Assembly (NCBI RefSeq): GCF_003172895.1
Contig: NZ_QGKL01000029.1
Location: 1 to 64,000 of the forward strand
Direction of reading: 5' to 3'
Length of the DNA stretch: 64,000 bases
Origin: Leucothrix arctica
GTDB lineage: Bacteria; Pseudomonadota; Gammaproteobacteria; Thiotrichales; Thiotrichaceae
Positions 15,960 to 23,800 of this stretch are shown one piece after another. Within the stretch, counting starts at the first letter, position 1, and each line of letters begins with the position of its first letter. A program made the translations under genes and the position numbers. The notes below the pieces were generated by a model. The model worked only from the letters and a program-made list of their open reading frames with translations. It made no database searches and was not told the origin of the DNA.

Positions 15960-18092
15960 ATGACCAGCAAACAAAAAAGAATCTACAAATTCACTAAATA
16001 CTTAACATTTCCATTACTACTAAGCTTTAGCCTCGCTGCCTGTAACTCTAGCAACTCTTCCAGTGAAACAACCACTGACCCTGACCTGTTAACAGGTAAA
16101 ATTACGGGTGTTTCTGTTGAGGGTTTAAGCTACCAAACGGAGTCGCAATCAGGCGTAACAACAGCTGATAGTACCTTCACTTTTAAAGAAGGCGAATCAG
16201 TCTCTTTCTTTATCGGTGATATTGCCATTGGCCAAGCCAGCGCCGCGGCTGAGCTTACGCTGTTTGATTTAGTGGGTATTGCTGACCCTGACTCACTTGC
16301 CGATGGAGCAGAAACAAAGCTAAAACAAACGACAAGAAGCTCGTTTCAGTTTGAACACCTAAGTAACTTAGTTGTGCTGTTAACTGCGCTTGATGAAGAC
16401 GGTGATTTTGCTAACGGCGTTGTTATACCAGCAAGCTTAGAAAGTGTTGCGCAAGGTAAAACACTGGATATTTTAGGCAGTAAAACCAAGACATTTAAGT
16501 ACGACTTAAATGGCAGTGAGTTATTAAGCGAAGCGGTTACAGAGGGAATTTGGCAGAGTACTCCGACGATCGTTTCTCCGGGTGCAGCATTAGATGCTTT
16601 TTATGCAGCTATGGGCATAACACCTGAAGTTTACACGACCGCCAAAGAGCTCTATGACACTGATGAAGATGGCAATGCCGACTTCACAACAAGCTATGCA
16701 TTTGATGATGCAGGTAACCTTGTTAGCAAGACTAGAGAGACGGATGACTTAAGTACAAGTGAAGTCACTACGTACACTTATGATGATAGCGCAAGAAATA
16801 TAGGTATTTATCGAGAAAGTAATGAAAATGGCCGTACTTACTTCTCTCAACAAGAAAAAGCTTTTGATGCCGAGGGCAGAGAAATACTGAGTCAAACCGA
16901 CTCAGATGGTAATGGTATTTTTGAGGTTCGTAGAGTGACTGAAACAGAGTATTACGAGTCGGGCTACCCCTCATATAATAAACAAAGTGATGAACAGTTC
17001 TCTGAAACCACAGGCGAGCTACTATTCCTTTCCGCATATACTACAAAGTACGACACGCAAGGTAATCATACTTACCAAAGCAACACCTCCCAAAATAACT
17101 ACGATGGTCAGACATCCTCTCAAAGCATAACTTACACATTTGACTCAGCAGGTAATAGAACAAAGGAAGAAATAGATAACGATGGCGATGGTACTGCTGA
17201 TGTTATTCATAGCTATGGATACAACGATGAGCAAAAACAGATACTAGAAGAGTCTGATTTAAATGGTGACGGCGAGATAGATACAAGAGAAACAGCCATC
17301 TTTGACGAAAGTACCAATACAGCTACATTAAGTTATGACAGCAATGCTGATGGCGTTATAGATAACATTTCTACTGCAGTTTATGACGATAATAACAATA
17401 TAATCAGCCAGCGTATTGATGAAGGTAATGATGGCACTTTTGAGGAAGTGACTACTTGGGACTATATCTATAATTCCGAAGGCTTTGCTTTAAGTACGAA
17501 TGAAGTCAGCGAAACCTCTCCAGAAAAAAACCAACTAACGACATATACTTTTGATGATGAAGGCAGGTTATTAACTTTTTCCTATATATATGCTAATGCG
17601 CCCGAGCAAAATTACCTGCAGACTATTGCCTATGACGAGGCAGGCGAAGCTACTTTCTATTCAGTCGAACACGGTGTTATCAATACAGACTACTACTATC
17701 GTACTACGACAGTTATACATGACACTTACGGTGGACAAACAACGACTGAGTACGACTCAAATAATGAAATTAAGTCAGTTGACAGTCTACTCTATGATGA
17801 TCGAGGGAACCAAATTGAAGAGTCATCAAGTGATACATATGAAAGTGGCATATCAACCTACAAGACAACTTGGACTTACAACAGCGATGATCAAGTGATT
17901 ACTGAGTCTGTTTTTAGAGCGAGCGAAGAATACTCAAACACAACATATGCCTATGATGAGCAAGGTGAACTCATTTTAACTACCTCAACTATTTTATCCG
18001 ATCAGGGTGGCAGAGAAGGTGAGGTTACAACCATCACTTACGAGTTCGCTGATCTAGGATCATGGCAGGCGCTATATCGTCGACTAGATTGA
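15960..18092 (+). CDS. YD-repeat/calcium-loop outer-surface lipoprotein, copy 1
   Basis: I recognise the architecture, not a named family. The 710-residue protein has a lipoprotein signal with lipobox LAAC (SFSLAACNSS), so it is lipid-anchored. Residues 45-110 form a beta-rich domain (ITGVSVEGLSYQTES ... GESVSFFIGDIAIGQ). From about residue 220 the chain is made of units that alternate RHS-like YD motifs (YDDAGN, TFDSAGNRT, YDEQGE) with DxNxDGxxD calcium-binding-type loops (DTDEDGNAD, DNDGDGTAD, DLNGDGEID, DSNADGVID). It is paralogous to the next gene. An adhesive or structural surface role is inference. A strong terminator at 18133-18154 follows. Confidence 0.75.
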   Translation: MTSKQKRIYKFTKYLTFPLLLSFSLAACNSSNSSSETTTDPDLLTGKITGVSVEGLSYQTESQSGVTTADSTFTFKEGESVSFFIGDIAIGQASAAAELTLFDLVGIADPDSLADGAETKLKQTTRSSFQFEHLSNLVVLLTALDEDGDFANGVVIPASLESVAQGKTLDILGSKTKTFKYDLNGSELLSEAVTEGIWQSTPTIVSPGAALDAFYAAMGITPEVYTTAKELYDTDEDGNADFTTSYAFDDAGNLVSKTRETDDLSTSEVTTYTYDDSARNIGIYRESNENGRTYFSQQEKAFDAEGREILSQTDSDGNGIFEVRRVTETEYYESGYPSYNKQSDEQFSETTGELLFLSAYTTKYDTQGNHTYQSNTSQNNYDGQTSSQSITYTFDSAGNRTKEEIDNDGDGTADVIHSYGYNDEQKQILEESDLNGDGEIDTRETAIFDESTNTATLSYDSNADGVIDNISTAVYDDNNNIISQRIDEGNDGTFEEVTTWDYIYNSEGFALSTNEVSETSPEKNQLTTYTFDDEGRLLTFSYIYANAPEQNYLQTIAYDEAGEATFYSVEHGVINTDYYYRTTTVIHDTYGGQTTTEYDSNNEIKSVDSLLYDDRGNQIEESSSDTYESGISTYKTTWTYNSDDQVITESVFRASEEYSNTTYAYDEQGELILTTSTILSDQGGREGEVTTITYEFADLGSWQALYRRLD

Positions 18093-18132
18093 TAGTAATT
18101 TTCTACCACTCTAAAATAGGGTTAGTAACACT

Positions 18133-18162
18133 GGGCGACTCTCTTGAGTCGCCCTTTTATTT
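18133..18162 (+). terminator. Intrinsic terminator after YD-repeat lipoprotein 1
   Basis: GGGCGACTC (18133-18141) pairs with GAGTCGCCC (18146-18154) across a 4-base loop, followed by TTTTATTT. It separates the two paralogous lipoprotein genes, so the second needs its own promoter. Confidence 0.9.
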
Positions 18163-18230
18163 GTCCAAATTGTAAGTACCGAGAAACTCGATTACTATTG
18201 ATGAAACTTGGGCCAATAAAAACAATAATA

Positions 18231-20150
18231 ATGAATAAAAAAACAATAAGTCGTGCAACGAAACTTAAGCCATTACTACCTATACTACTGAGTGTGGGCC
18301 TATCTGCCTGTAACTCATCTAGCAACAAAAGTGCAACGATAGAAACACTATCGGGCAAGATTGTTGGCGTTCAGGTCGAGGGCTTAAGCTATAAAACACC
18401 ATCATTCTCTGGAGAAACAAGCGCAGACGGCAGCTTCACCTATAAAACGGGCGAAACAGTCTCCTTCTTTGTCGGTGACATCGCCGTGGGTGAAACAAAA
18501 GGCAGTACTGAGGTTACCTTCTTCGATCTTGCGGGCATTGCTAACCCTGCTGCCGTCTCGCAGGACGCACGAGCAAAACTTCAAGATAACACCACTGTTC
18601 ATGAGCACGACAAGCTAAGTAACTTAGTTGTGTTCTTCGACGCGATTGATGAAGACGGTAACTACGCAAACGGCATCACCGTTCCTAGTCAGCTAAATGA
18701 ATTAGCCCTGGGTAAAACGCTCGATATTAAAGGCACGTCATTTCAGGACTTTGAAAAGCAGTTTGGTGACAGCCAATTACTGGATGATGCAGTCGCAGCA
18801 GGCGTATGGACTCGTGCGCCAGAAACTACTCCCGCGATGACCGCATTAGACATGTTCTATAAAAATATCGGAGAGCCTGTTCAATTATCCGTGGTCACTG
18901 AAACGTTAACCGACTCGGGTAACGATGGCACTATCAATAAAAAAAACACGACAACCTACGATGAGTTCGGCAATAAGTCGGGCGAGTACAAGGACTATGA
19001 CAACGATGGCACCCCAGAGTCACAAGAGATCTGGACTTATAACGAAGCATTAACGACTTTAGAGCACAAAGCAGATAAGAACGGTAACGACATCTTTGAG
19101 TCGACAGACTCAACAACGACAGTACTTTATGATGACAGCGTCACCGCTTCAGACACTCAAGTCTATGCTTACTATAATGATGAGACGGGTACGCTTGAGT
19201 ACAAGAGTACACAAACACTCAGCTATAGCGCTGATGGTGAGCTAAGCAAGTCTGAAAACCTATATGAGTCGCCTAACTCAACCGGTAAGTCTTCTAGTAT
19301 TTATACTCGAGACGCTGATGGCCGTTTAACTAAATTAGAAATAGATGATGGCTCGGATGGCTCTATAGATAGAATAGAGACTCACCTGTTCAACGAAGTA
19401 ACGAAAGCGTCTAGCACTGAGATTGATACAAATGCTGACGGTGTTGCCGATGAGATCTCATATGCGACCTATGACGACAACTCCAACATCCTGACTTACA
19501 GTGAAGATTCAAATGCGGATGGAGTCATTGACGCACTAGAAACGAACACTTATGACGCGAATGGCAACCCTGTCAAAATGACCAGTGAAGTTAACGGAGA
19601 AGTCATTAAGGTCATTGACCGTGAGTATAATACCGCTGGAAATAAGCTAAGTGAGCAGCTTACTGACTCGACTGACTCGGACAATAACTCACTAGAAACC
19701 TATCAATATGGTGCCGATGGTAATCTGAAAATCCATACCATTTACAGTTGGTTAAATGGGGTGAAATACTTACAGTACCAAACCTTTCATGATGCAAATG
19801 GTGGACGCTCGTTAATGAAATACGATGAGTATGCGGAAGTCACTCAAACAGAATCAACGAGTTATGATGACCAAGGTAACCTGTTAGAAACAAGCTCTTT
19901 CAGCTATCAAGACGGTGTTGAAAGCTCTAGCTTAGTTAAAGTATATAGCTATGACTCAGAAAACAGACTGAGTAAAGTTACTGAGACAGCTAATGGCAGC
20001 TTGGTCGATAGTAAAAACTATGTCTATGACAGTGCGGGCAACCTGACCTCTATCGTTAATGACGCTATTTCAGAAAGTGGCAGTGTTAGCACTGAGAGTT
20101 ATGTTTACGACAATGTTGCGTCTTGGACAACGCTCTACTCCTCTTTATAG
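18231..20150 (+). CDS. YD-repeat/calcium-loop outer-surface lipoprotein, copy 2
   Basis: This is a paralogue of the preceding gene with the same plan. A lipoprotein signal with lipobox LSAC (SVGLSACNSS) comes first, then a beta-rich domain (IVGVQVEGLSYKTPS ... VSFFVGDIAVGE). Repeated YD-type units (YDEFGNK, YDDNSNI, YDANGNP, YDDQGNL, YDSAGNL) are interspersed with DNDGTPE, DTNADGVAD and DSNADGVID loops. I place the start at 18231 because an upstream in-frame start at 18144 lies inside the preceding terminator and would put residues before the signal peptide. A hairpin at 20169-20191 follows the stop. The pair looks like a tandem duplication that has since diverged. Confidence 0.75.
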   Translation: MNKKTISRATKLKPLLPILLSVGLSACNSSSNKSATIETLSGKIVGVQVEGLSYKTPSFSGETSADGSFTYKTGETVSFFVGDIAVGETKGSTEVTFFDLAGIANPAAVSQDARAKLQDNTTVHEHDKLSNLVVFFDAIDEDGNYANGITVPSQLNELALGKTLDIKGTSFQDFEKQFGDSQLLDDAVAAGVWTRAPETTPAMTALDMFYKNIGEPVQLSVVTETLTDSGNDGTINKKNTTTYDEFGNKSGEYKDYDNDGTPESQEIWTYNEALTTLEHKADKNGNDIFESTDSTTTVLYDDSVTASDTQVYAYYNDETGTLEYKSTQTLSYSADGELSKSENLYESPNSTGKSSSIYTRDADGRLTKLEIDDGSDGSIDRIETHLFNEVTKASSTEIDTNADGVADEISYATYDDNSNILTYSEDSNADGVIDALETNTYDANGNPVKMTSEVNGEVIKVIDREYNTAGNKLSEQLTDSTDSDNNSLETYQYGADGNLKIHTIYSWLNGVKYLQYQTFHDANGGRSLMKYDEYAEVTQTESTSYDDQGNLLETSSFSYQDGVESSSLVKVYSYDSENRLSKVTETANGSLVDSKNYVYDSAGNLTSIVNDAISESGSVSTESYVYDNVASWTTLYSSL

Positions 20151-20168
20151 TCGGTATTTACTCATGAG

Positions 20169-20191
20169 CTGGTAGTGTCTAACACTGCCAG
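20169..20191 (+). terminator. Probable terminator after YD-repeat lipoprotein 2
   Basis: CTGGTAGTG (20169-20177) pairs with CACTGCCAG (20183-20191) with one G-U pair and a 5-base loop. The T tract after it is weak, so termination may be partial. Confidence 0.5.
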
Positions 20192-20221
20192 TTCAGCCGT
20201 CTTTACTAACGTCCCTTCTCA

Positions 20222-20276
20222 TTTACATCTGCTTTACCCTCCCCTTACCCACATTAACAATTACCCATTGCATAAT
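20222..20276 (+). promoter_or_regulatory. OmpR/PhoB-type direct-repeat operator and promoter, copy A (no gene follows)
   Basis: Half-sites TTTAC (20222), TTTAC (20233), CTTAC (20244) and TAACA (20255) are spaced exactly 11 bp apart. CATAAT (20271-20276) follows 27 bp after the CTTAC start. The geometry is identical to copies B and C before the two Spy-like genes. There is no good -35 box, as expected for a class II activated promoter where the regulator covers that site. Downstream there is only a short stretch and a terminator. Confidence 0.7.
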
Positions 20277-20282
20277 TATCCC

Positions 20283-20359
20283 ATCGATGAGTAACACGTA
20301 TTTTCGGTAATAGATCTACAACTAGTTATATTGGGTAGCTGTCATGGGCTACCCTTTTT
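20283..20359 (+). ncRNA. Candidate small RNA (or relic leader of a lost spy-like gene)
   Basis: Transcription from the CATAAT box of copy A would begin near 20283. An intrinsic terminator ends it at about 20359: GGGTAGC (20333-20339) pairs with GCTACCC (20348-20354), followed by TTTTT. The product would be about 77 nt. The first bases (ATCGATGAGTAACACG) align with the leaders of the two Spy-like genes, but no Shine-Dalgarno or coding part follows. Either a small RNA co-regulated with the Spy-like genes or the remains of a deleted third paralogue would fit. Expression has not been shown. Confidence 0.4.
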
Positions 20360-20385
20360 ATTGGATATCACTACCGCTAATCGTG

Positions 20386-20440
20386 TTTACAGAATCTTTA
20401 CGTTCTCCTTACCCACACTAACATTTACTTATTACATAAT
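20386..20440 (+). promoter_or_regulatory. OmpR/PhoB-type direct-repeat operator and promoter, copy B (Spy-like gene 1)
   Basis: TTTAC (20386), TTTAC (20397), CTTAC (20408) and TAACA (20419) follow an 11-bp period, with a CATAAT -10 box at 20435-20440. It drives the gene at 20497 with a leader of about 50 bases. Spacing matches copies A and C base for base. Confidence 0.72.
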
Positions 20441-20496
20441 TAGTCCATAGACAAATAACACGTCACCATACAATTAAAAACAAACAGGAAATCATA

Positions 20497-21216
20497 ATGA
20501 GAAACGCAATTTTAGTAACACTTTTAGCAAGTACTTTAGGTCTAGGCGCAACAGCTGCTCAAGCGGACAACCATGATTCTGGTAAGAAAGGTCAAGGCCA
20601 CGCTAAGCACGAAGGCGGCAAGCATCAAAGTAAGAAAAGCGGCAAGCGCGGCGGCAACATGATGAAGCGCATGACTGAGAAGCTAAGCCTTACTGAGGAC
20701 CAGCAAGCACAGATCAAGACATTGCGCGAATCTCAGAAAGAGCTAAGCCAAGCACTTCGAGCTGAGAAGAAAGCGCTTTACACCGAAATCAAAGCACTAG
20801 ATACAACTAGCGCAGATTATGACAGTGAAGTAGCAGCATTGGCTGACAAGAAAGCGATGGTAGATCGCAAAGCGTTCATCCAACGCAGTACAGCACGTCA
20901 GCAGTTTGAAGCAGTACTGACCGCTGAGCAGCGTGTAACAATGAAAGAGATGAAAGAAAGCCGTAAAAATCGTACTAGTAAAGGTAAGCGTAGTGGTAAG
21001 CGCGGCATGATGAAGGGTGGTCTAGCAGAAAAGCTAAACCTAACTGACGCACAGAAAGACCAAATTACTGCGCTTCGTGCAGCAAAGAAAGGCCAGTCAA
21101 CAAGTTCTGAGTTTGAAGCAATTCTAACGGCTGAGCAGCTAGTAACACTTAACAAAATGAAGGAAAACTTCAAGAAACGTAGCGGCAAGCATGGTCAAAA
21201 GCATAATGCTAAGTAA
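20497..21216 (+). CDS. Spy/CpxP-like periplasmic LTxxQ protein with two repeats
   Basis: This 239-residue exported, very basic protein has a signal peptide ending AAQA-D near residue 23. It then has a His/Lys/Gly-rich stretch and two LTxxQ-type units: LSLTEDQQAQIKTL with LTAEQRVTMKEMKE (near 63-150), then LNLTDAQKDQITAL with LTAEQLVTLNKMKE (near 180-225). Spy and CpxP are periplasmic chaperones or stress sensors induced by envelope damage and metals. Having both units in one chain suggests an internal duplication. Its first 20 codons, last codons and promoter closely match the gene at 22464. It is monocistronic with its own terminator. Confidence 0.82.
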   Translation: MRNAILVTLLASTLGLGATAAQADNHDSGKKGQGHAKHEGGKHQSKKSGKRGGNMMKRMTEKLSLTEDQQAQIKTLRESQKELSQALRAEKKALYTEIKALDTTSADYDSEVAALADKKAMVDRKAFIQRSTARQQFEAVLTAEQRVTMKEMKESRKNRTSKGKRSGKRGMMKGGLAEKLNLTDAQKDQITALRAAKKGQSTSSEFEAILTAEQLVTLNKMKENFKKRSGKHGQKHNAK

Positions 21217-21242
21217 GATTTAAGTCGTCTCTTAGTTGTGAA

Positions 21243-21269
21243 GGGCAGCTCTTTTGAGCTGCCCTTTTT
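21243..21269 (+). terminator. Intrinsic terminator after Spy-like gene 1
   Basis: GGGCAGCTC (21243-21251) pairs with GAGCTGCCC (21256-21264), followed by TTTTT. The stem is nearly identical to the terminator after the second Spy-like gene. Confidence 0.9.
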
Positions 21270-21289
21270 ATTGCCTCGCGTTTAGAAAA

Positions 21290-22252
21290 TTACTGGTGTC
21301 CTTTAACCTTTAATTTAATGGCATAAAGATCAGCGCTTCGATTTGTTATATAAAGCGTATCCTTTTCTTTTCCGCCAAACGCACAGTTAGTGGTTCGTAT
21401 ATTGTTAGGTAAATCGATTCGTCCCCACTCCTTGCCCTCTGACGACCAGACTTTTATACCAGTACGAGTGGCAACATACAGATTACCGTCTGCATCCATT
21501 GCCATACCATCGGTGTTTTGAGCACGTGCAAACTCTCGCTCATTCGACAACTCGCCTTTAGCATCAACATCAAACGCTAAGATTGGCCCCGACTCGTCAT
21601 CTGATACCGCAAGATACATAGTACTTTGGTTAGGGCTAAAAATAATACCATTTGGGTTTTTAGTCTGAGCCATCTCTTTAATAACTTTAATATTGCCATC
21701 GGGTGTACGAACAAACACGCCATTAAAGTCTATTTCTCTTTTCGATGGATCTCGTCGCAGACCAAACGGCGGGTCAGTAAAGTACACATTGCCATTGGCA
21801 TGTACTGCCATATCATTAGGTGAGTTAAAACGATAACGCTTTCCTTCTACCTCAAATGCTTCAATGAACGGTGTAACTTCTTTGGTGGTCAAGTTCATAC
21901 GCGTAATAGAACGGTTTTTTTGTTCGGCAGCAAGTAAATAGCCTTCATTATCTAGCGACAAACCATTTGCTACGTCTGACGGTGAGCGCACCTTTTCCAA
22001 CGTTAATGTGTCACTATTTAAACCGTAAATGGTATTACCTGGAATATCGGTAAATAACAGTGTGTTTTTTTTAGAAAGCCAAACAGGCCCTTCAGTTGAT
22101 TTGAACCCGCTTGCTACAACCTTAAGTTCTCCCATTCCTTCTAAAGGGTTGGTTTTAGCCTGCTCTGTGCCTGCGTAGGCTGCTCCGAAAATAAGTAGCG
22201 TAGCGCAACTGGCTTTTGAGAAAGCGCTAATAAACGTATTCATACTCTGCAT
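21290..22252 (-). CDS. SMP-30/gluconolactonase-family exported protein
   Basis: This is a six-bladed beta-propeller of the SMP-30/gluconolaconase/LRE family, which includes metal-dependent lactonases. The protein is about 320 residues with a signal peptide (CATLLIFGAAYAG). Family motifs are STEGPVWLSKKNTLLFTDIPGN (near 50-72), the metal-ligand segment FNSPNDMAVHANGNVYFTDPPFG (near 140-162) and DGMAMDADGNLYVATRTG (near 245-262). I choose ATG 22252 because AGGAG lies seven bases upstream; a GTG one codon earlier is possible. It sits in opposite orientation between the two Spy-like paralogues, so it either interrupted a tandem pair or moved with one copy. The substrate is unknown. Confidence 0.85.
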   Translation of the reverse strand: MQSMNTFISAFSKASCATLLIFGAAYAGTEQAKTNPLEGMGELKVVASGFKSTEGPVWLSKKNTLLFTDIPGNTIYGLNSDTLTLEKVRSPSDVANGLSLDNEGYLLAAEQKNRSITRMNLTTKEVTPFIEAFEVEGKRYRFNSPNDMAVHANGNVYFTDPPFGLRRDPSKREIDFNGVFVRTPDGNIKVIKEMAQTKNPNGIIFSPNQSTMYLAVSDDESGPILAFDVDAKGELSNEREFARAQNTDGMAMDADGNLYVATRTGIKVWSSEGKEWGRIDLPNNIRTTNCAFGGKEKDTLYITNRSADLYAIKLKVKGHQ

Positions 22253-22355
22253 CACGTGTCTCCTAATAAATAATTAGCCTTGTAAGGCTTAAGTTTTAGT
22301 ACGATGGTTACCGTTAGGCCGAGTACATCATAGTTAAGCAAAAAACGATTCTGTA

Positions 22356-22410
22356 TTTACAGAATCTTTACAGCGCTCTTACCCTAATTAACATTTACCT
22401 ATTGCATAAT
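22356..22410 (+). promoter_or_regulatory. OmpR/PhoB-type direct-repeat operator and promoter, copy C (Spy-like gene 2)
   Basis: TTTAC (22356), TTTAC (22367), CTTAC (22378) and TAACA (22389) repeat every 11 bp, and CATAAT lies at 22405-22410. The CTTAC-to-CATAAT distance is 27 bp, as in copies A and B. It drives the gene at 22464. Confidence 0.72.
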
Positions 22411-22463
22411 TTATTCATCGGCGGACAACACTCCAAAAATAAAACAACCAGTAGGAAATCATA

Positions 22464-22874
22464 ATGAAAAACGTAATTTTAGTAACTCTTTTAGCAAGTA
22501 CTTTAGGTTTAGGCGCAGCGGCAGTTCACGCGAACGATACGACTGGAACACAAGGTGTAAAGACTTACGCTCAATCAGAAGACGGTAAGCACAAAGGTAA
22601 GCGTAGTGGACGTCGTGGCGGCATGATCAAGCACATGACAGAAGCGCTAAGCCTGACTGAAGCACAAGTTGCTCAAATGAAGTCACTTCGTGAAGCAAAC
22701 AAGGGTACAAAGGGCAGTAAAGACAAAGCGGCTCGTAAAGCAGGACGTGAGCAGTTCGAAACGCAGTTTAAAGCTATTTTGACACCTGAGCAGTTAGTTA
22801 AGCTTGAAGCGTTGCACAGCGAACGTGGTGGAAAGCACGGCGGTAAGCGTGGTCAGAAGCATAACGCTGAGTAA
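22464..22874 (+). CDS. Spy/CpxP-like periplasmic LTxxQ protein, single unit
   Basis: This 136-residue paralogue of the protein at 20497 has a near-identical signal peptide (ILVTLLASTLGLGA, ending VHA-N). A Lys/Arg/Gly-rich linker is followed by one LTxxQ unit: LSLTEAQVAQMKSLREA (near 65-81), then LTPEQLVKLEALH (near 112-124), ending KRGQKHNAE. It is probably a periplasmic chaperone-like stress protein. Promoter, leader, coding ends and terminator all match the first gene, so the whole transcription unit was duplicated. It lacks the second unit of its paralogue. Confidence 0.82.
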   Translation: MKNVILVTLLASTLGLGAAAVHANDTTGTQGVKTYAQSEDGKHKGKRSGRRGGMIKHMTEALSLTEAQVAQMKSLREANKGTKGSKDKAARKAGREQFETQFKAILTPEQLVKLEALHSERGGKHGGKRGQKHNAE

Positions 22875-22900
22875 GTATTACAAGTCTCTTAGTTAAACAG

Positions 22901-22926
22901 GGCAGCTCTTTGAGCTGCCTTTTTTA
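22901..22926 (+). terminator. Intrinsic terminator after Spy-like gene 2
   Basis: GGCAGCTC (22901-22908) pairs with GAGCTGCC (22912-22919), followed by seven Ts. Confidence 0.9.
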
Positions 22927-23056
22927 TTGCTTCACGGTCATTACTTCAACCATATTAAGAGGTCGTAATGGCAAAATAACGGTAAATATTAGCATTAAAA
23001 TCCATTTACACTAATAATAGAGCGGATATAAAACAGACAGAATAAGTAGGTCTCAT

Positions 23057-23800
23057 ATGCCATTTTTCATTATCAGCATCGCTATTCAGATTGCCCTAGT
23101 CGTCCACGTCATTAAAACGGGTCGTAATACTATGTGGATCTGGGCCATTATGGGTATTCCTGGTCTAGGTGCTGCTGCGTACTTTTTGGTAGAGCTATTG
23201 CCAATACTGTTGGGCACTCGTGCAGGTTGGCAAGCACGAAAAAAACTGAATAACGTGATCAATCCAAACAAAGACTTAAATCAGGCGAGCAATGACTTTG
23301 AAGTCGCTGACACTGTTCAAAACTCATCACGCCTTGCCGCTGAACATTTGGAAAAAGACCAGTTTGAAGAAGCCCGTGCGCTATATGACAAGTGCTTGTC
23401 TGGGATTCATGAGGACGACCCATACTTTTTGTTTGGGCGTGCACAAGCGGAGTTTGGTTTAGAGCAGTACCCGCAAGTGAGACAAACACTGGATGAATTG
23501 ATTCGTCTTAACCCTGACTTTAAAAACGTAGACGCTCACCTACTGTACGCCAAAAACTTAGTTGAGTTGGGCGAGACTGATCTAGCGATGAAAGAATTTG
23601 TCGTATTAAACGAAACATTCCTCGGCCCGGAAGCAAGCTACCGTTATGCTATGTTATTAAAAGACCAAGGAAAAACAGAAGATGCAGAACGTATTTTTGA
23701 TGAGATATTAAAAGCAGCAAAAGTGGCGGATAAACATTACCGAGCACGCTACAAGCATTGGATTTCTTTGACTAAGAGTGAGTTAAAAGACACCTTATAA
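23057..23800 (+). CDS. Membrane-anchored tetratricopeptide repeat protein
   Basis: The 247-residue protein begins with two hydrophobic segments (residues 1-17 and 26-50) that resemble the PLDc_N-type membrane anchor (MWIWAIMGIPGLGAAAYFLVELLP). The rest, from about residue 85, is a set of TPR helices on the cytoplasmic side (AAEHLEKDQFEEARALYDKCL, FGRAQAEFGLEQYPQVRQTL, AMLLKDQGKTEDAERIFDEIL). TPRs mediate protein contacts; the partner is unknown. It stands alone and is closed by the terminator at 23890-23926. Confidence 0.8.
   Translation: MPFFIISIAIQIALVVHVIKTGRNTMWIWAIMGIPGLGAAAYFLVELLPILLGTRAGWQARKKLNNVINPNKDLNQASNDFEVADTVQNSSRLAAEHLEKDQFEEARALYDKCLSGIHEDDPYFLFGRAQAEFGLEQYPQVRQTLDELIRLNPDFKNVDAHLLYAKNLVELGETDLAMKEFVVLNETFLGPEASYRYAMLLKDQGKTEDAERIFDEILKAAKVADKHYRARYKHWISLTKSELKDTL

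Follow-up and report, generated by a model that had tools for sequence, protein, structure and literature searches.

Predicted CpxR operators with tandem half-sites before Spy/CpxP-like genes, and one copy without a gene, in Leucothrix arctica

Introduction

CpxR is a well-known regulator of bacterial cell-envelope stress. A tandem arrangement of regulator half-sites is familiar from the pho boxes of PhoB, in which four half-sites stand head to tail, 11 bp apart, and replace the -35 box.

For CpxR itself, the box has been quoted as GTAAA-N5-GTAAA (PMC3127752) and the published consensus as GTAAA-N4-8-GTAAA (PMC12802237), going by the portions of these sources on which we draw. For CpxR of Pseudomonas aeruginosa, the latter describes a site with N6 spacing at cpxP and, at muxA and yceJ, overlapping sites offset by 11 bp (PMC12802237). 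The cpxP unit is also the source of a regulatory RNA, since CpxQ of Escherichia coli and Salmonella derives from the 3' UTR of the intact cpxP mRNA, according to the part of the source consulted (PMC4817254). Among the titles listed from the open-access literature, none concerns Cpx in Leucothrix.

Here we analyse 64,000 nucleotides of the Leucothrix arctica genome (G000; 4,751,432 bases in 44 contigs), corresponding to positions 1 to 64,000 of contig NZ_QGKL01000029.1 (C22) and called the window throughout, together with the rest of that genome and the genomes of relatives.

Operator arrays and promoter geometry

Three arrays of half-sites lie on the forward strand of the window, at 20222..20259 (copy 1), 20386..20423 (copy 2) and 22356..22393 (copy 3). 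A sequence-only reading of this DNA had described TTTAC, TTTAC, CTTAC and TAACA recurring every 11 bp in the three places. Direct reading and recomputation of the pattern reproduced the first three elements: the first TTTAC starts at 20222, 20386 and 22356, the second, 11 bp further on, at 20233, 20397 and 22367, and CTTAC at 20244, 20408 and 22378. As for the fourth, TAACA is present (20255, 20419 and 22389), but YTWAC, 10 bp after the third half-site, is the better reading (YTAAC in the window; TTAAC at 20254 in copy 1), because in related promoters exactly this place is taken by TTTAC or CTTAC. At this position, 17 bp before the -10 box, we observed YTAAC in the window copies, in the three promoters of G003 and in the three full promoters of G004, TTTAC in G010, G016 and G015, and CTTAC in the promoters of two LysM protein genes (see below); the promoter of the spy paralogue on contig C3 has TTAAT there, and that of a YHYH protein gene does not fit the position.

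A CATAAT -10 box follows 27 bp after the start of CTTAC in all three copies (20271..20276, 20435..20440 and 22405..22410), as had been noticed, and transcription of copy 1 would be expected to start at about 20282. The lack of a -35 box was also borne out: the hexamers at that position (17-bp spacer) are CCCACA, CCCACA and CCCTAA in copies 1 to 3, and in a scan for consensus promoters none of the three CATAAT boxes was paired with a -35 box, the pair of TTTACA at 22367 with TAACAT falling within operator 3. The earlier proposal of an OmpR-family operator, bound head to tail and overlapping the -35 region, is thus well supported by the sequence. Read on the minus strand, the sites are GTAAA-N6-GTAAA, the direct repeat of CpxR, in all three copies, and the controller of these promoters is very probably CpxR, as judged from sequence.

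The flanks of the three promoters are alike as well, and the promoters share their spacers and some of the 5' UTR, which identifies the copies as paralogous duplicates of one promoter. They are therefore not three independent observations; chance is excluded, and independence is not claimed.

In the whole genome, the exact arrangement TTTAC-N6-TTTAC-N6-CTTAC occurs three times, always in the window, with none for the reversed-pattern control and an expectation of about 0.02 (base composition, sample of seven loci). A slightly different pattern, YTTAC-N5-CYTTAC-N5-CYTTAC with at most two mismatches, gave 11 matches in the genome and 3 in the control. Seven of the 11 are promoter-like, being upstream of genes or copy 1 itself: the three window copies, the C3 spy paralogue, the LysM genes at C37:252894 and C11:112106, and the YHYH gene at C37:464275. 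Two of the remaining four lie within longer ORFs, and the other two were inspected by reading the sequence. Looser patterns behave as background, since the triple pattern with three mismatches gave 236 matches versus 219 in the control and the two half-sites GTAAA-N6-GTAAA gave 26 versus 19; as the control gives 19, most of these 26 sites are attributable to chance. Random scatter with respect to promoters, the outcome named beforehand as contrary to a regulon, does not describe the strict pattern, seven of whose 11 near matches are promoter-like; the loose patterns stay at background.

The same holds for most relatives. With at most two mismatches, the three-half-site pattern and its control gave, respectively, 10 and 10 matches in G003, 4 and 5 in G002, 8 and 9 in G010, 6 and 10 in G016, 3 and 1 in G021, 2 and 2 in G008, and 3 and 6 in G015; only G004, among these eight relatives, stands out from the background (21 versus 8). 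Because it is mostly background, the pattern alone cannot list regulons.

Spy/CpxP-like genes

Two of the copies had been said to drive Spy/CpxP-like genes, and the profile searches agree. Copy 2 precedes a gene for a periplasmic LTXXQ protein of 239 aa (20497..21216, plus strand), whose C-terminal end holds a further LTXXQ-like stretch in shortened form, and copy 3 precedes a gene for one of 136 aa (22464..22874, plus strand), in which the middle of the domain is missing. Both score above the gathering threshold of Pfam PF07813 (48.3 and 32.3 bits; threshold 24.3), and neither reaches the NCBIfam equivalog cut-off for Spy/CpxP proper (best scores 48.2 of 174 and 38.4 of 174). The two proteins are, on these scores, members of the LTXXQ family rather than established equivalents of Spy or CpxP in E. 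coli. The family seems to have changed by internal duplication (the 239-aa protein) and by deletion (the 136-aa protein). The first gene is followed by a terminator hairpin at 21243..21273 (fold z -4.94; absent from the terminator-scan list), and the second by a terminator at 22899..22926, recognised both by folding and by the terminator scan.

As for the surroundings, a gene for an SMP-30/gluconolactonase-like protein (Pfam SGL) occupies 21290-22255 on the minus strand, between the two spy genes, and two large adjoining ORFs, whose products begin like lipoproteins and contain numerous YD-type repeats, span 15960-20150 and end just before copy 1.

Two further close spy paralogues are encoded in the genome. 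The one at C3:97589 has an operator with a single mismatch (C3:98236), and the one at C34:32570, whose frame ends early, has a variant of the operator with N5 spacing. Protein searches identified four close spy loci in G000, three in G003 and four in G004, and the operator is present at 10 of these 11; only a truncated G004 copy lacks it. A fifth LTXXQ match in G000 (C37:338420; 23.7 bits, below the cut-off) is without the operator. In three spy genes of relatives (one in G003 and two in G004), a CU-rich stretch, CTCTCCTCC, stands just before the terminator and is a possible anti-Shine-Dalgarno stretch; we set it aside as a candidate small-RNA seed, as it was seen by eye in those three genes and is absent from the window units.

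An operator without a gene

Copy 1 has no gene of its own. Between copies 1 and 2 there is no ORF of at least 60 aa on either strand, and in the transcript expected from copy 1 (20283..20359, plus strand, about 75-80 nt) the longest ATG frame has 7 codons (20287). About 50 bp after the expected transcription start, the terminator scan placed an intrinsic terminator at 20333..20359 (stem 20333-20354, followed by a T run), which resembles in alignment those of both window spy genes; with that of the first gene it shares a weak local match (81% over 31 bases, E 0.67). At its other end, the region 20218-20299 is 85% identical to a spy promoter of G003 (G003:C60:2965-3046) and is less like copies 2 and 3 (79% and 77%, respectively). 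A search of the Leucothrix genomes returned no second whole copy, the 5' part matching other spy promoters, and in the six other Leucothrix genomes, three of them incomplete, no match extends over more than 82 of the 161 bases. The simplest history is that copy 1 is probably a spy unit that has lost its ORF, and stress should then induce from it an RNA of about 75-80 nt, with its 3' end at a terminator of the spy type. A role as second promoter of the first spy gene is unlikely, because the terminator lies between them, though transcription may read through it.

We find it fairly probable that copy 1 is a mere relic, an ORF-less spy unit, functionless yet with an intact promoter because the loss is recent. 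Its likeness to the G003 spy promoter and to spy terminators agrees with this, as does the occurrence of shortened spy genes elsewhere in the family (the 136-aa paralogue and the truncated frames at C34 and in G004); against it, all operator and -10 elements of copy 1 are unchanged, a state in which recent loss and selection are indistinguishable from one genome.

These intact promoter elements, with the intrinsic terminator, the presence of hfq in the genome and the regulatory RNA made from the 3' end of the E. coli cpxP unit (PMC4817254, in the part consulted), are compatible with copy 1 being a functional gene for a small RNA that would be the counterpart of CpxQ. Such a role is possible, if unlikely, given the limited match in the other Leucothrix genomes. 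The whole RNA, moreover, folds with no unusual stability (z -1.67; 13 of 200 shuffled sequences did as well), and the Rfam search of 19600-23400 returned three hits, all below gathering scores. That the loss of a chaperone ORF created a new small RNA induced by stress, by leaving a complete CpxR promoter joined to a spy terminator, is a reading of copy 1 that we regard as doubtful. Should copy 1 turn out to be transcribed, it would offer a clear example of a decayed stress gene giving rise to a small RNA.

Identity of the regulator

The sequence-only reading had expected a two-component envelope-stress or metal-stress system encoded outside the window. An envelope-stress system is well supported by sequence, whereas none of our observations suggests metal stress in particular, and the regulator can now be named as, very probably, CpxR, whose box was already known. 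No OmpR-type regulator gene is present in the window, as stated earlier; the only match to the CpxR profile on the contig, at C22:71860, is outside. The best match of the genome is the gene at C4:53651-54319, which is followed by a kinase gene whose two best models are CpxA. The scores are below the curated cut-offs for both proteins: the regulator reaches 228.9 of 341 with the CpxR model, the OmpR model being only 13 bits lower (215.6), and the kinase reaches 251.1 of 486 and 259.5 of 800 with the CpxA models.

The suggestion to look for the motif at a kinase/regulator operon gave a positive result for this CpxRA-like pair. One GTAAA-N6-GTAAA site lies between the C4 cpxR gene and a divergent gene, in an orientation relative to cpxR opposite to that of the spy sites. 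The box before cpxR is kept in G003 (N6) and G004 (N5), where the sequence beyond it differs, and is thus found in all three Leucothrix genomes that have the gene, as expected for autoregulation. We considered this box as an operator of the divergent gene, which encodes a DUF4340-like protein (below the Pfam cut-off); this is less likely, since by eye the box stays with cpxR in G003 and G004 in spite of the differing sequence beyond. A C4-type CpxR was detected, at E <= 1e-60, in two of the six other Leucothrix genomes, and no orthologue was detected at this threshold in four of the seven Leucothrix genomes, three of which are 56-69% complete and the fourth (G002) 97%.

Control by another OmpR-family regulator was weighed, as there are 42 matches to the CpxR profile in the genome, 17 of which cover most of the profile, and the half-sites of this family are alike. 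The obvious candidate is the regulator at C37:338764, directly after the LTXXQ gene at C37:338420. We consider this very unlikely. The recognition region of the C4 regulator is identical to that of E. coli CpxR at 18 of 29 positions, versus 11 of 29 for two other regulators, that of C37 included (eight regulators were also compared over a slightly different recognition stretch). The repeats upstream of the C37 LTXXQ gene are, by eye, of another kind (GTTAC-type, with no TTTAC-N5/6-TTTAC), and it is cpxR that carries the box in three species and that the box accompanies in other genera. The LTXXQ gene and OmpR-type regulator at G000:C37:338420-339453 appear as a second, separate Spy-like system.

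Regulon and conservation in relatives

The small regulon of three sites first proposed is too narrow. By their sequences, two spy paralogues (C3 and C34), two LysM proteins and cpxR also belong to the predicted regulon, and the YHYH protein probably does. The LysM genes encode basic secreted proteins and have the four-half-site array in their promoters, both with CAAACT in place of the CATAAT of the spy promoters.

Conservation was quantified on 11 spy-type promoters from three genomes, copy 1 included, with the fourth half-site taken at +33; the truncated G004 spy gene, which has no operator, and the G010, G016, G015, LysM and YHYH promoters were left out. The four half-sites hold 1.74, 1.86, 1.86 and 1.86 bits per base and the three spacers 0.83, 0.71 and 1.51, the third spacer being itself conserved, a contrast that is partly built in because the promoters were aligned on the operator. 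The -10 box holds 1.85 bits per base and the 20 upstream bases hold 0.42. The paralogous window copies, with their common spacers and partly common 5' UTR, might suggest that the periodic motif merely came along with promoter duplication and has no regulatory meaning; this is extremely improbable, given that half-sites are kept across genera while spacers and upstream flanks are not and that the same array stands at the unrelated LysM genes.

Beyond these loci, we examined 16 further Spy homologues, among them a G002 match too close to a contig end (95 bases) to be judged. A box of the form TTTAC-N5/6-(A/C/T)(T/A)(T/A)AC is present upstream of five (G010a, G016a, G015, G031 and G021), and 11 are without it. 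In G010, G016, G015 and G031, which belong to other genera, the spy gene adjoins a CpxR-type gene, and all four carry the box. A kinase gene precedes spy in G016, the coordinates in G010 fitting the same order, and in G015 and G031 spy and the regulator gene point away from each other, as they do in E. coli; the boxed homologue of G021 precedes a cytochrome-like fusion. The half-sites of G010, G016 and G015 are placed 48, 38, 27 and 17 bp before CATAAT, compared with 49, 38, 27 and 17 bp in the window, and some are degenerate (TAAAC, TATAC, ATTAC). No strict box was found before cpxR itself in G010 and G016. In Leucothrix, spy is not beside cpxRA; in the window genome cpxRA is on C4 and the spy genes are on C22, C3 and C34.

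Arrays of TTTACC/CTTACC in 11-bp steps were also observed at G004:C1:3421926-3449628 and on G003:C58, possibly a second class of operator; they precede small secreted proteins at G003:C58 and at G004:C1:1480444, the latter cupredoxin-like by eye.

We regard as highly probable the reading of the whole, in which tandem CpxR boxes under the C4 CpxR/CpxA pair serve an output of chaperones, LysM proteins and CpxR, with copy 1 as a spy promoter devoid of its ORF. The geometry of the arrays, their rarity in the genome and their conservation from one species to another are read from the DNA itself, as are the cpxR box and the linkage of spy to cpxR in relatives. We infer that phosphorylated CpxR, encoded with CpxA on C4, would occupy the four half-sites as two dimers arranged head to tail, and that this array, ending against the -35 region, would recruit RNA polymerase to a promoter with a -10 box only, activating the Spy/CpxP-type periplasmic chaperones, the LysM proteins and CpxR itself.

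Comparison with known systems

These results would place a Cpx envelope-stress circuit with a fixed four-half-site geometry in Leucothrix and in further genera of the same family, a long way from the enterobacteria that served to work it out, its target chaperone gene having multiplied to form a family of scattered members. The pho boxes of PhoB differ from the window operators in half-site sequence and in regulator. In E. coli K-12, cpxP has TTTAC-N5-TTTAC on the coding strand, in the same orientation as the window sites, and GTAAA direct repeats stand before a periplasmic LTXXQ chaperone and before cpxR, as they do here. The spacing is N5 in E. coli K-12 versus N6 at most sites here, four half-sites are recognisable here, unlike in the E. 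coli comparison, and the multiplied spy genes of Leucothrix, unlinked from cpxRA, contrast with the cpxP-cpxRA promoter region of E. coli K-12.

The CpxR sites of P. aeruginosa share with the window both the N6 spacing and the overlap shifted by 11 bp, as far as the consulted part of the source goes, whereas the target genes are different and a copy without a gene is not mentioned in that part (PMC12802237). With CpxQ, copy 1 has in common that an RNA is expected from a Cpx-driven cpxP/spy unit and would end at the terminator of that unit, in line with the part of the CpxQ source used here (PMC4817254). Copy 1, however, has no ORF and its putative RNA would start at the promoter, the sequences having been compared through Rfam only. 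If the small-RNA reading is true, copy 1 would be a free-standing regulatory RNA, whereas in E. coli CpxQ is cut from the end of the mRNA of cpxP.
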